Source: Chromera velia (Eukaryota; Sar; Chromeraceae). Taken from it: a stretch of DNA of 26,353 nt. The position numbers and the translations under genes were made by a program. The stretch's first letter is position 1. Every line of letters begins with the position of its first letter. Positions 7,107 to 17,742 of the stretch are shown here, piece by piece. A model generated the notes under the pieces. It saw nothing but the letters and a program-made list of their open reading frames with translations, searched no databases and was not told the origin of the DNA. Location of the stretch: contig JAHBMJ010005712.1 of the NCBI GenBank assembly GCA_018398765.1, forward strand, positions 123,410 through 149,762, given 5' to 3'.

Positions 7107-9353
7107 TTACTTGTTCTCCTTGATGTGATCGAGGAGGAAGGTCATTCCGTCGGACTCCTCACCCCAGTCAGTGACGGCAACGCACGAGGCGCCAACGACC
7201 TTTCTGGGCTCTCCGTTCTTGTCGATCTTGCACAGACCAGACCACTCTCCAAGGGTCTTCGAGTTGGGCACAGTCACAAGGGGGATGGAAGCCTCCTTGC
7301 AGAGCGCCTGCATGCATGCAATCAATCGCAGAATTCAACTTGACTGTATCCGCATGAGAAATCAACAAGCGAGCGAAGCGATGGAATAAACAGAAATGCG
7401 AAAAGGAAGAAAGAAGTGAGGGAACACAAGGAAAGAAAAAAAGCTGTGAGTTCCATGGTTTTTCTCGCAGCCATCCAGCCAGAGGCCTGCCCGCAGAGAG
7501 GCTGACTGCCAAGATCAGGAATATGGAACGCCTCCCAAGGGAGCCGGGCTCAACACGAGGGAATTTGTTTCAGACGACGCTGCCTCAACTATACACCACA
7601 GACAGACAGTCAGAAACCGTCAAGGCGCTTGGGTGCAGCCCACAAGACGACGCCCCCGAAGGATTGCCGCACGAGTGTGATCGTCCAAGAAAGGAAGAAG
7701 CACAAGGAGAACGAGAATGCGATTTGATTCCATGCAAAACCGAAAAATCGGACGCGGATGAATCTATGCACTTCATCTCATCAATGCATCAATCAAGGCA
7801 TCAGAATGCTTTATGAGTTCATTCACTACATGCATGAGTGCATCATGCAAAGTCATGTCAGGTCAACTGCGATGAATTAATCTAGGTGCTGATTCAACTC
7901 TAGTTCGTTCCTCAACTCGTCCTCTCCTCAAAGCTCCGACGCCTTCTGCCCCCCCCCCCTCCTTCCACCCATCTTTCACAACCAAGTCTTTGTCTTCCTA
8001 TCACCTCTCTCACCCCGCCCGTGGACCCATCCACACACCAGCTCCCTCTTCATCTTCTCTTTCTTCTTCAGACACAGATTTCTGTTGTATTGCCCCCGCT
8101 CTCGGCCCCCCTTTCTGTCCTCCCAAGTACGTCAGTCCCGGTAAGTGGAAAAGTGGGTGAACAGACGGAACGGAGAGACAGACAAAGCGAAGCATGCAGA
8201 AACAGACAAATGGACAGAGAGGTTAAGAAGGACAGGCACTCTCTCGGCAGGCGGTGAAAGAGGCAGACAGACAGACAGACACACAAGAAAGCAGGACAGC
8301 CGTTCAGAGAGGACACACAGAAAGGAGAAGCAGGCAGCCAAACAAACAGTGGGAATCGAAAGGAGGAAAGCTGTCCAGAAAGCAGGAGGAAAGGGGCAGG
8401 GAGAAGAAACCAGAAAGGAACCACGAGACAAAAGGAAAAAAAAGAAAATTAAGCTGTGAGTTCCATGGTTTTTCTCGCAGCCATCCGGCCAGAGGCCTGC
8501 CCGCAGAGAGGCTGACTGCCAAGATCAGGAATATGGAACGCTTCCCAAGGGAGCCAGGCTCAACACGAGGGAATTTGTCTCAGACGACGCTGCCTCAACT
8601 ATACACCACAGACAGACAGTCAGAAACCGTCAAGGCGCTTGGGTGCAGCCTACAAGACGACGCCCCCGAAGGATTGCCGCACGAGTGTGATCGTCCTCTC
8701 ATCCCCCCCCCCTTCTCTCAAGTCATCCTTTTCTTTTCCGATTCCTTTTTCGTGATTCTCTTTCACCCACTCGCCTGATGTGCCCACTGCCTACAAAGCA
8801 CCCGTGCCTGATACCCCCCCACAGTGACCTGACAGCAACCCTCTTCAGCTACACCGCCCTCGCTCGATCAAAGAGCTCTCCCAAAAATCGCGCCCGCTCG
8901 AAATACCAATGTGCTCACGACCTGACTGCCTGACTGCCAGCTGACACATGCATTCATATGCAGGAGAATGCAGGAGATTAATCGGTAAACCGACTGACCG
9001 TGACGAGCTTCTTGTAGGCGGGCTCATCGACAGACTCGGAGAGAAAACACACGTGAGCCTTCTTCTGGGAGAGAATCTGGGCGACCTCGTGGAGTCCTCT
9101 CACAAGGCCGTCATTGATCAGCGCGTTCTTGAGAACCTTCTTGGTGGCCTGCACACAAGCAGTAAGGCCGAAAAATCGTCATAGAGAAGGAGGGGTGACA
9201 CGTGGGGTTCACACACTCAAGAGAAAGCAGAAGAGCACGTTGGCACACAAAAAGAGAGAGAGAGAGACTGACGCTGGAGATGTCAGTGACCGCCTCTTCC
9301 TCTTCCTCCTGGACCTCCTCCTGGATGTCGGGGGCTTCGTCGTGATCGGACAT
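7107..9353 (-). CDS. RPS12: 40S ribosomal protein S12 (eS12), three exons
   Basis: Exons on the minus strand are 9353-9273, 9148-8999 and 7307-7107, all joined in phase 0, giving 143 residues, normal for eS12. The protein starts MSDHDEAPDIQEEVQEEEEE, an acidic N-terminal extension seen in this family. It continues with the conserved stretches KKVLKNAL, GLVRGLHEVAQIL, EPAYKKLV, ALCKEASIPLV, LGEWSGLCKID and RKVVGASCVAVTDWGEES. eS12 is part of the small ribosomal subunit and acts in the cytosol after nucleolar assembly. The start has A at -3. Both 5' splice sites read GTCAGT. The second intron (8998-7308) is long and hosts two copies of a U17/snR30-like snoRNA. The gene is head-to-head with the lipase gene and convergent with the gene on its left. 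The identification is firm. Confidence 0.95.
7442..7686 (-). ncRNA. U17/snR30-like H/ACA snoRNA, copy 1, in RPS12 intron 2
   Basis: A 245-nt element on the RPS12 sense strand, bounded by its identity with a second copy. In RNA sense it begins with GGACGAU (7686-7680), which pairs with GUCGUCU (7578-7572) to close a 5' hairpin. An H box AAACAA (7570-7565, fits ANANNA) follows almost directly. A 3' hairpin closes with GUUCCAU (7529-7523) against AUGGAAC (7456-7450). ACA (7447-7445) then stands exactly three nt from the inferred 3' end. The 3' hairpin carries AUAUUCCU (7524-7517) and AAACCAU (7461-7455), matching the m1 and m2 motifs that define U17/snR30. That snoRNA base-pairs with 18S rRNA and is required for its processing, rather than guiding pseudouridylation. 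It is probably released from the spliced intron. Folding was done by eye. Confidence 0.8.
7687..8451 (-). other. Intron spacer between the two snoRNA copies
   Basis: About 765 nt of RPS12 intron 2. In the transcript sense the part covering about 8140-8450 is strongly pyrimidine-rich, with GTCTGTCT-type repeats. A C-run lies near 7950 on the plus strand. No coding potential or third snoRNA copy was recognised. Confidence 0.5.
8452..8696 (-). ncRNA. U17/snR30-like H/ACA snoRNA, copy 2, in RPS12 intron 2
   Basis: This is a direct repeat of the element at 7442-7686: the same 245-nt length, five substitutions and no gaps. All diagnostic parts are kept: the 5' basal stem (8696-8690 with 8588-8582), the 3' basal stem (8539-8533 with 8466-8460), AUAUUCCU (8534-8527), AAACCAU (8471-8465) and ACA (8457-8455). 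The H box reads AGACAA instead of AAACAA and still fits ANANNA. It lies 5' of copy 1 in the transcript, nearer exon 2. Outside the 245 nt the two copies do not resemble each other, so the conserved unit coincides with the predicted RNA. Confidence 0.8.
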
Positions 9354-15679: not shown

Positions 15680-16858
15680 TCACCAGTACTTGCAGGGTGT
15701 CCAAGTGTCTACAACCTCCCGATCGCCTCTTTTCTCCAGCACTGAGTACTGCGCATGTTGGCAAGCAGACATGCAAGAGTGATTGGGCAAAATCGTGACC
15801 ATCGACCCCAACGAGAATCGATCCGCAATCGGCAGCCCCACCGAGGAGGCTGAGGGGTCCATGCCGATCACTGACACCTCCTGGCTCATTCTCTTCACCA
15901 AAAGATCCGGATGCCCATCAACCCGTCCCCAACCGGATATACCCCCCGAGTCTTTATGGACAGCGGTACCCCCTGCATCTATCAGCGCCTCATTCCGCTC
16001 AGGATATACAGAGACGACTCGAGACAGCACACCCACTGCGATATCAGGCAGGGTGCAACTCCCACTATCGACCTGCTGGAGGTCATAGAACACAAAATTG
16101 CCGGGATGGATCTCGGTGATCTCTGGAGGAAGAGGCGAGACGGCAGTGGCACTGGGGGTGCTCCCCACACCAACGGCTTGGGGATATAAGCCCAACGATT
16201 TCAGGTACCGTGCAGCTGTAGCACTCAGCTCGGCCTCTCTATCTGCAATTTGGGCTGCTTCCTGAACCCCCCCCTTGCAGTTATACGTGTTCCCACTATG
16301 CGCATACAATCCAAAAAACTCCGTGTGCTTCCCTGCTGCAATTGCCTTCACGACCGACTCCAACACATCAAATTTTCCCTCGGAAATGTCTATACCTGCC
16401 CTGTGATACCCGCAATCGAGTTTCACAAACAGATGGATTTTTCCCGTCTCCCCTCTTTCGGCAAGAGCCGTCTCCAGCTCCTCCACCGCCCCCACTGAAT
16501 CCACCATCAATCGGGGAACAAACGAAGGAAGGCAGTGCCGAAGGGCAAGCACACGATCTAGACGGGAGATATGGAAGGGCGTTGCATAAGTGATATCGTT
16601 GTGTCCCCCCTCGGCGAAAAATTCCATTTCCGAAATGGTGCTGGCAACAATCCCGACTACCTTCCTTCCCTCTTGAAGAATTCCCTCCCCCTCTTCCTGA
16701 ATGATCTTGGAAACCTCCAGGGTTTTGTGTGTCTTCACATGGGGTCGAATGTTTACTTTCAGCTGCTCTGCTCTCTTCAGGACCCTCACACAGTTCTGCC
16801 TCACAACAGAACGCCACAAAAGGAACGAGGGCGTCTGAAGAGTTTCAAGCAACACCAT
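15680..16858 (-). CDS. D-serine dehydratase / D-threonine aldolase family PLP enzyme
   Basis: An intronless frame of 392 residues. The N-terminal alanine-racemase-like barrel begins LQTPSFLLWRSVVRQN and contains RPHVKTHKT, where Lys42 is the expected PLP-binding lysine. Later segments KLDCGYHRAGID, YAHSGNTYNC, GVGSTPSA and EIHPGNFVFYD match conserved blocks of this fold. The C-terminal domain has PNHSCM, with His about 360 and Cys about 362 as the expected metal ligands of eukaryotic D-serine dehydratase. The reaction would be D-serine to pyruvate plus ammonia. D-threonine aldolase or 3-hydroxy-D-aspartate dehydratase activity cannot be excluded from sequence alone. Length and both domain ends look complete. 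It is head-to-head with the SCC2-like gene. The absence of introns, next to intron-rich genes, could reflect transfer or retrocopying, but nothing else here proves that. Confidence 0.9.
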   Translation of the reverse strand: MVLLETLQTPSFLLWRSVVRQNCVRVLKRAEQLKVNIRPHVKTHKTLEVSKIIQEEGEGILQEGRKVVGIVASTISEMEFFAEGGHNDITYATPFHISRLDRVLALRHCLPSFVPRLMVDSVGAVEELETALAERGETGKIHLFVKLDCGYHRAGIDISEGKFDVLESVVKAIAAGKHTEFFGLYAHSGNTYNCKGGVQEAAQIADREAELSATAARYLKSLGLYPQAVGVGSTPSATAVSPLPPEITEIHPGNFVFYDLQQVDSGSCTLPDIAVGVLSRVVSVYPERNEALIDAGGTAVHKDSGGISGWGRVDGHPDLLVKRMSQEVSVIGMDPSASSVGLPIADRFSLGSMVTILPNHSCMSACQHAQYSVLEKRGDREVVDTWTPCKYW

Positions 16859-17742
16859 GACGTCTTTCTGTCTTTTTCTCTCTCCTTTTTCTCAACGTGT
16901 CCACGGTGCCAAGCAATCAGGCAGCAGGACTGAAGGTTGGACTGACAGTGAAAGGAAATAAAGAGAAGAACACCTGAGGTGACTGAGCAATCGATATTGA
17001 GCTGCACGAGACGGGAAGGAAAAGGAGACGGCTTCCTTTCTCTGGCAGGTTGCTGACCGCAGTGACGATGCCCTGATTCTTGTGATGAGACGAAGAGAAC
17101 GGTAGCCCAAGTGACGGTCCTCAACCAGCTGCTCGTGCATTTAATTGACCCGCTGGATCGATTGCTCTTCATTTCTGGTAGTCTTCTCATTCGTCGCGAA
17201 AGAACTCAGTCTCTCACGCGAGTCACAGTGATAATGGAGGGCCCCATGGCCCCGGAAACTCGCGGAGAGGGAAACATAGGGAAACTGCGCGACATGCCGG
17301 GGTCCGTGCGCATGCAGATTAGATGCCCTTTCAACATCTTTCAACATGCATCCTTTCAACGCGCGTGCACGAGACGGCAGGCCGAGCCACAATTTGCTCT
17401 CAGTCACTTAATTTGGCAATCTTCGATCAGCAGTCACTTTCGACCTCTCACAAGATCTCACAACACCAAGACTCTCCATGTTCTCCACCTCTGTCAGAGA
17501 AGTCTGATGCATCAGCAAAAACACAGCACGGAGAAATTTTGACTGAGGTAGAGTTTCGCACCTGCCTGCGTCTTCCTGCCTTCTTCGGTGTGGAAAGTTG
17601 TCTTCCATTTCTGCTTTGCTCTTTGGTTGACCCACGTTGAAGATTTGTTGTGTCGATTGATCTTCTCCTAGTGCTCATTCGAAAAGTCCAGTGGTTTTTC
17701 TGCTGAAGAAGCTTCAGTCGAGAGCTTTCCTCCATCCTTCCG
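16859..17742. promoter_or_regulatory. Divergent region between the D-serine dehydratase-like and SCC2-like genes
   Basis: These 884 bases separate the two start codons. They contain CTTTCAACATNTTTCAACATGC-type repeated short words near 17328-17348 and a GC-rich CCATGG-centred patch near 17240. No core promoter element is convincing. Open frames on both strands here have no recognisable domain. Confidence 0.4.

Follow-up and report, generated by a model that had tools for sequence, protein, structure and literature searches.

U17/snR30-like snoRNA genes in an intron of RPS12

We are confident that two near-identical 245-nt repeats in the second intron of the Chromera velia gene for ribosomal protein S12 (RPS12) are intron-encoded genes for the box H/ACA snoRNA U17/snR30, and that at least one copy, not necessarily every copy, is functional. 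A third copy is found on the same contig (Table 1), and it is part of our best explanation that this set of three is the putative source of U17/snR30 RNA in the genome. The window that was analysed is a stretch of 26,353 nt (G000:C3784:123410-149762) from an assembly of 178 Mb in 4,040 contigs.

The product of the host gene matches the Pfam family Ribosomal_L7Ae (PF01248) with 82 bits. Its top PDB match is chain M of 5xxu with 183 bits (runner-up 139.2), an entry that we take to be the Toxoplasma ribosome. When the assembly was searched with RPS12, the three matches were its own three exons, and thus the gene looks single-copy. At the splice junctions of intron 2, the exon end ...CTCGTCACG is followed by gtcagt on the 5′ side, and tgcatgcag is followed by the exon start GCGCTC on the 3′ side.

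The first-pass annotation had described two 245-nt copies with five differences and no gaps in a single RPS12 intron. The alignment of copies 1 and 2 agrees (5 differences in 245 aligned columns, 0 gaps); a scan gives an ungapped repeat of 251 nt, with 6 nt extra on one side. The strand had been absent from that annotation. It is the minus strand, which is the sense strand of RPS12; the plus strand is excluded as the RNA strand since neither the motifs nor the Rfam match nor the host gene is on it. Copy 2 starts 302 nt from the 5′ splice site, a spacer of 765 nt separates it from copy 1, and the end of copy 1 is 134 nt from the end of the intron, the two copy starts being 1,010 bases apart.

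Table 1. Features of the RPS12 locus and of the U17/snR30-like snoRNA copies (window positions unless a contig is named).
Feature	Position	Strand	Remarks
RPS12 (eS12) host gene	7107..9353	-	exons 9353-9273, 9148-8999, 7307-7107; ends hand-read from sequence
RPS12 intron 2	7308..8998	-	1,691 nt, GT...AG; exon 2 ends at 8999, exon 3 starts at 7307; contains copies 1 and 2
U17/snR30-like snoRNA copy 1	7442..7686	-	predicted mature RNA, 245 nt, 5′ end 7686
U17/snR30-like snoRNA copy 2	8452..8696	-	predicted mature RNA, 245 nt, 5′ end 8696; first transcribed
Third copy of the 245-nt RNA	G000:C3784:95370-95614 (L002 1501-1745)	same strand	~35 kb from the RPS12 pair
m1 AUAUUCCUG	7516..7524 (copy 1); 8526-8534 (copy 2)	-	equals the 9-mer of Tetrahymena U17 (Table 1 of PMC7601244)
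m2 AAACCAU	7455..7461 (copy 1); 8465-8471 (copy 2)	-	
ACA box	7445..7447 (copy 1); 8455-8457 (copy 2)	-	3 nt from 3′ end
H box	7565..7570, AAACAA (copy 1); 8575-8580, AGACAA (copy 2)	-	difference at an N position
5′ domain	7571..7686 (copy 1); 8581-8696 (copy 2)	-	predicted; two stems inside closing stem nt 1-7/109-115
3′ hairpin	7448..7529 (copy 1); 8458-8539 (copy 2)	-	predicted; basal stem GUUCCAU/AUGGAAC, open pocket

Sequence motifs and family assignment

The two boxes that had been reported, an ANANNA H box and an ACA three nucleotides from the end, are present in every copy on the minus strand. ACA has this position in 3 of 3 copies when the 3′ end of the RNA is taken to be the end of the repeat. 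In a scan of start positions 102-170, the hinge of each of the three copies has a single ANANNA, its H box at nt 117. Nucleotides 117-122 read AAACAA, AGACAA and AAACAA in copies 1, 2 and 3, respectively, with the same invariant letters in each.

In RNA numbering, m1 AUAUUCCUG is found at nt 163, m2 AAACCAU at nt 226 and ACA at nt 240 followed by 3 nt, with m2 starting 14 nt ahead of ACA; these values are the same for all three copies. Each copy thus carries the motif pair of U17/snR30, m1 AUAUUCCU(A/G/U) together with m2 AAACCAU. The version AUAUUCCUG/AAACCAU is listed for Candida glabrata and for Tetrahymena thermophila, and U17 of the latter has both motifs letter for letter (Table 1 of PMC7601244).

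The arrangement of m1 core, 30-60 nt, m2, 4-14 nt and ACA was absent, on either strand, from all 20,000 sequences obtained by dinucleotide shuffling of copy 1. Across the 178-Mb assembly it occurs at four places, of which three are the copies and the fourth is on another contig, C315 (five rows in total, two overlapping ones being from C315). No basal stem forms when the place on C315 is folded, and the reversed-pattern control has 0 matches in the same assembly.

At its gathering thresholds, Rfam reports nothing in the window. With permissive filters and 4,227 families, SNORA73 (RF00045, U17) is the top family for each copy, on the correct strand, with 21.1, 20.5 and 19.7 bits (E 0.011, 0.016 and 0.012) for copies 1 to 3. 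The alignments span model positions 1-219, end exactly where the repeat ends and have CAUAUUCCU, AAACCAUG and ACA in register. Of the 245 nt, they cover 218 in copies 1 and 3 and 182 in copy 2, none begins at nt 1, and the 5′ domain of copy 2 is placed unlike that of copies 1 and 3. Six other weak Rfam rows in the window (E 0.14 to 9.3) were dismissed as chance. A whole-genome SNORA73 search listed no row at E <= 10 (29 of 4,591 first-look candidates were scored), though the window matches at E 0.011.

The proposed U17/snR30-like identity is well supported by motifs, layout and top family, while the Rfam score of 20-21 bits is far from the SNORA73 gathering cut-off of 74 bits, which none of the three copies reaches, so that Rfam itself makes no call. 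As the cut-off is a database threshold and no biological definition of the family, a low score is no veto on membership. We consider it very improbable that the copies are ordinary H/ACA pseudouridylation guides with m1- and m2-like letters in the pocket by chance. The generic H/ACA architecture and the low Rfam score would fit such guides, but both motifs are complete, the half of the 3′ pocket that they occupy is the basal one, and their order ahead of ACA is correct; the shuffle result and the first rank of SNORA73 among 4,227 families for each of three copies also argue against them. By their motifs and layout, the copies are very probably U17/snR30. Because the Rfam model misses such an RNA by a wide margin, a search for motifs plus layout could help the annotation of protist genomes.

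Two Fcf1/PIN-family matches are found in the genome. They would fit Utp24 and a Utp23-like partner, which are not told apart here.

Predicted secondary structure

It had been claimed that m1 and m2 are opposite each other next to the 3′ basal stem; in the predicted fold, both motifs overlap the stem GUUCCAU/AUGGAAC and extend into the open pocket of the 3′ hairpin. On the other side of the hinge, all seven of nt 1-7 pair with nt 109-115, two as G-U, when nt 1-116 are folded alone, and the H box follows one base later. From this pairing, the predicted RNA would begin at the 5′ edge of the repeat. The SNORA73 consensus, as far as the alignment output shows it, has a like layout with a closing stem around inner stems and then AGAgcA.

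Folding of both copies had been suggested as a check. The domains fold as expected when taken apart, but shuffles fold as well as or better than the full 245 nt, in 197 of 200 cases for copy 1 (z +1.82) and in 187 of 200 for copy 2 (z +1.30), and the H/ACA fold is absent from the unconstrained full-length MFE structures of both. The energy of the 5′ domain is ordinary, with z of 0.08, 0.55 and -0.58 for copies 1 to 3 (105, 136 and 51 of 200 shuffles), and that of the 3′ hairpin is slightly better than shuffles, with z of -0.86, -1.58 and -1.58 (38, 14 and 14 of 200). Above the pocket, the MFE structure of the 3′ hairpin of copy 1 is unlike that of copies 2 and 3. When the 5′ domain is shuffled 500 times, a comparable closing stem arises in 23 cases for copy 1 and in 11 for copy 3; for the 3′ basal stem, the numbers are 32 of 500 hairpin shuffles (copy 1) and 16 of 500 (copy 2).

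Seven sites are variable across the three copies (nt 14, 20, 46, 118, 141, 155 and 210). When they are placed on the structure of copy 3, four are unpaired or at an N position, two keep their pair and one breaks it. The pair-breaking site is nt 46 in copy 2, which affects one pair of the 5′ domain; in yeast snR30, the 5′ domain is dispensable (PMC7601244). Nucleotides 141 and 155 of copy 2 were considered as a compensatory pair and excluded, as both are outside the drawn helices. Since the three copies are near-identical, no covariation is obtainable from them.

A third copy and the origin of the repeat

Copy 3, which the first-pass annotation had not included, differs from copy 1 at 3 and from copy 2 at 6 positions, so that identity among the three copies is 97.6-98.8% (5, 3 and 6 differences in 245). 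It sits between two hand-read exons of a gene with the same orientation, whose product, as far as it was assembled from these exons, matches CREG_beta-barrel (PF13883) with 51.4 bits (cut-off 27) and PNPOx_N with 25.7 bits, which is below the cut-off of 28.1. Because its best PDB matches are the AT3G03890 protein (6m09, 80.7 bits) and the heme-binding protein PtHOZ1 (9bl1, 66.6 bits), we annotate it by similarity as a HugZ/HOZ-like gene of the CREG fold. The HOZ alignment crosses the junction that spans copy 3 and reaches just 4-5 residues into the upstream exon; hence the placement of copy 3 inside an intron of this gene is likely, not proven. Its distance to the end of that putative intron, 139 nt, can be set beside the 134 nt of copy 1.

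At least three copies are present in the assembly, all within 37 kb of one contig and on one strand. This is not the genome-wide scatter of a mobile element that the first-pass annotation had named as evidence against a snoRNA. Sharp repeat edges would suit a mobile or repetitive element unrelated to snoRNAs, but at least three copies in 178 Mb with such a distribution, and the presence of the U17 motifs, make this explanation the least credible of those considered. Hardly more credible is a duplication introduced by the assembly, with one real copy: the high identity of the copies would be expected, but their starts are separated by 1,010 bases and by ~35 kb, their gene contexts differ, each copy can be told by its own substitutions, and the 5′ flanks do not share the likeness of the repeat. 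In pairwise comparisons, these flanks (130 nt) are alike only at shuffle level, the score being reached by 75, 87 and 79 of 200 shuffles. Among the 3′ flanks (129 nt), that of copy 3 is weakly alike those of copies 1 and 2 (1 of 200 and 3 of 200 shuffles), and copies 1 and 2 show no likeness beyond shuffles (155 of 200). On the sense strand, 20-25 nt directly 3′ of each copy are T-rich (window 7418-7441 and 8428-8451; L002 1477-1500), which may reflect either a signal for processing or simply the base composition of the intron.

It is conceivable, and compatible with U17 identity, that one or both copies in the RPS12 intron are non-functional duplicates or retroposed, and that the RNA comes from a single one of the three, perhaps the copy in the HOZ-like gene; we regard this as rather unlikely. 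That the RNA is common to the copies while 5′ flanks are alike only at shuffle level would fit, as does the case of Plasmodium knowlesi, where a pair of identical snoRNAs that have poly-A stretches was interpreted as mobile (PMC2656528). Against it, each copy is on the sense strand of its host gene, no A-tail is seen on the sense 3′ side in the flanks examined, and the motifs are intact in 3 of 3 copies, which is weak evidence as recent copies would be intact anyway. Short flank-shared words as signs of retroposition (a 10-mer for copy 1, an 8-mer for copy 3, none for copy 2) lie in T-rich simple sequence of the 40-nt flanks and were not counted.

The intact copy 3 next to non-ribosomal exons shows that this snoRNA family is not bound to ribosomal protein genes, which argues against a strict coupling to ribosomal protein expression. 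Less likely than not, U17 is 'nomadic' in this lineage, and RNA-mediated copying or gene conversion has spread the RNA itself to introns of unrelated genes nearby; the RPS12 intron would then need an endonucleolytic cut for the release of both its RNAs, and supply would be split between a ribosomal protein gene and an unrelated one. If this were true, an RNA essential for ribosome assembly would be supplied by both kinds of gene.

The target site in 18S rRNA

Pairing of m1 and m2 with the organism's own 18S rRNA had been proposed as a check of the assignment. In the assembly, no rDNA was found by a search for the 5.8S family or by three 18S pattern searches, and one of the 18S patterns had 0 matches on viral contigs. 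Another 18S pattern gave 91 matches (41+50) in the assembly against 59 (23+36) for its reversed control, all listed at 2-3 mismatches, and the matches were not taken as 18S. The rDNA is missing from the assembly, withheld from it or missed by the searches. As the own 18S sequence was not found there, the pairing of m1 and m2 was modelled on 18S rRNA of other eukaryotes alone.

As proxies we used nine eukaryotic-type 18S stretches (L011-L019) from GTDB contigs that contain an exact 34-nt 18S pattern. These are prokaryote genome records with a eukaryotic 18S pattern, probably due to contamination. GGAATA is found within 420 nt of the 18S pattern in 8 of the 9 proxies, in 7 of them within AGCATGGAATAA. 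It is followed after 34-35 nt by TGGTTT in four (L011, L014, L015, L017), and TTGGTTA, with one pair fewer, occurs after it in three (L012, L013, L019). L016 has GGAATA without such an rm2, and L018 has neither. This GGAATA-TGGTTT spacing agrees with that of yeast 18S, where rm1 is at 801-806 (6 nt) and rm2 at 836-841 (PMC9176245).

The best predicted m1 duplex (UAUUCC/GGAAUA) is at the expected GGAATA in 7 of the 9 proxies, the exceptions being L012 and L018. For m2, the best duplex is at UUGGUU(U/A) in six and elsewhere in L011, L016 and L018. Both are at their expected places in 5 of 9. The longer m1 complement NAGGAATA is present in one proxy (L016).

Proposed expression and function

The RPS12 pre-mRNA would be spliced and the intron would yield U17/snR30, the RNA being shielded by the H/ACA proteins Cbf5, Nop10, Nhp2 and Gar1 while exonucleases trim its ends. 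As two RNAs share one intron with a 765-nt spacer, an extra cut in this spacer is probably required for both to mature; alternatively, one RNA might be released per intron.

In ES6 of pre-18S rRNA, the RNP would then bind rm1 through m1, the core of which is UAUUCC, and rm2 through m2, with the core AAACCA. By analogy with yeast snR30, it would chaperone platform folding and early cleavages and guide no pseudouridine. U17/snR30 pairs with ES6, is required for early cleavage and does not pseudouridylate its target (PMC7601244), and yeast snR30 chaperones the platform subdomain before this joins the 90S particle (PMC12095548). It is possible that the RPS12 transcript co-produces the maturation RNA of its own subunit, with a putative doubled dosage.

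Comparison with known U17/snR30 genes

Tetrahymena is an alveolate too. Its U17 is ~240 nt long, compared to 245 nt here, and is known from a partial sequence record (PMC7601244). The RNA described in the present study is a candidate U17/snR30, in full length, from an alveolate that is close to Apicomplexa.

In Xenopus laevis, U17 is likewise intron-encoded in the gene for a small-subunit ribosomal protein, in several copies (PMC7601244). These occupy all six introns of RPS8, whereas here two copies share one intron of RPS12 and one adjoins exons of another gene. The human U17a/U17b (SNORA73) in U17HG are also two copies per host transcript (PMC7601244), but they are in two introns of one gene rather than in one. 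Human U17 has 207 nt, and its 5′ part has two stems ahead of the H box, as is predicted here. Two snoRNAs in one intron of a ribosomal protein gene have been described from an apicomplexan, PFS15 and PFS16 in RPS27a of Plasmodium falciparum (PMC2656528). Those are box C/D snoRNAs, not described there as copies of each other, in contrast to the near-identical H/ACA pair.

The main text of the Plasmodium snoRNA paper (PMC2656528) does not mention snR30 or U17. In the open-licence literature, we found no paper linking snR30 with Apicomplexa or U17 snoRNA with Toxoplasma; papers with snR30 and Plasmodium are, by title, on Entamoeba and trypanosomatids, and among those with snoRNA and Chromera no title is on U17. 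U17 in introns of ribosomal protein genes, two U17 per host and two snoRNAs per ribosomal protein intron all have precedents, so that the present case, which is well supported, is a further instance of an arrangement that is already known. It adds a case where two copies of one snoRNA occur in a single intron.

Two minor observations concern the window. At its 3′ splice site (7308-7320, minus strand), intron 2 of RPS12 has the run TGCATGCATGCAG, which contains TGCATGC, a word known as an AP2-type motif in Apicomplexa. A 403-aa open frame at 15680-16891 on the minus strand matches D-ser_dehydrat and Ala_racemase_N and resembles a D-serine/D-threonine dehydratase-like enzyme.
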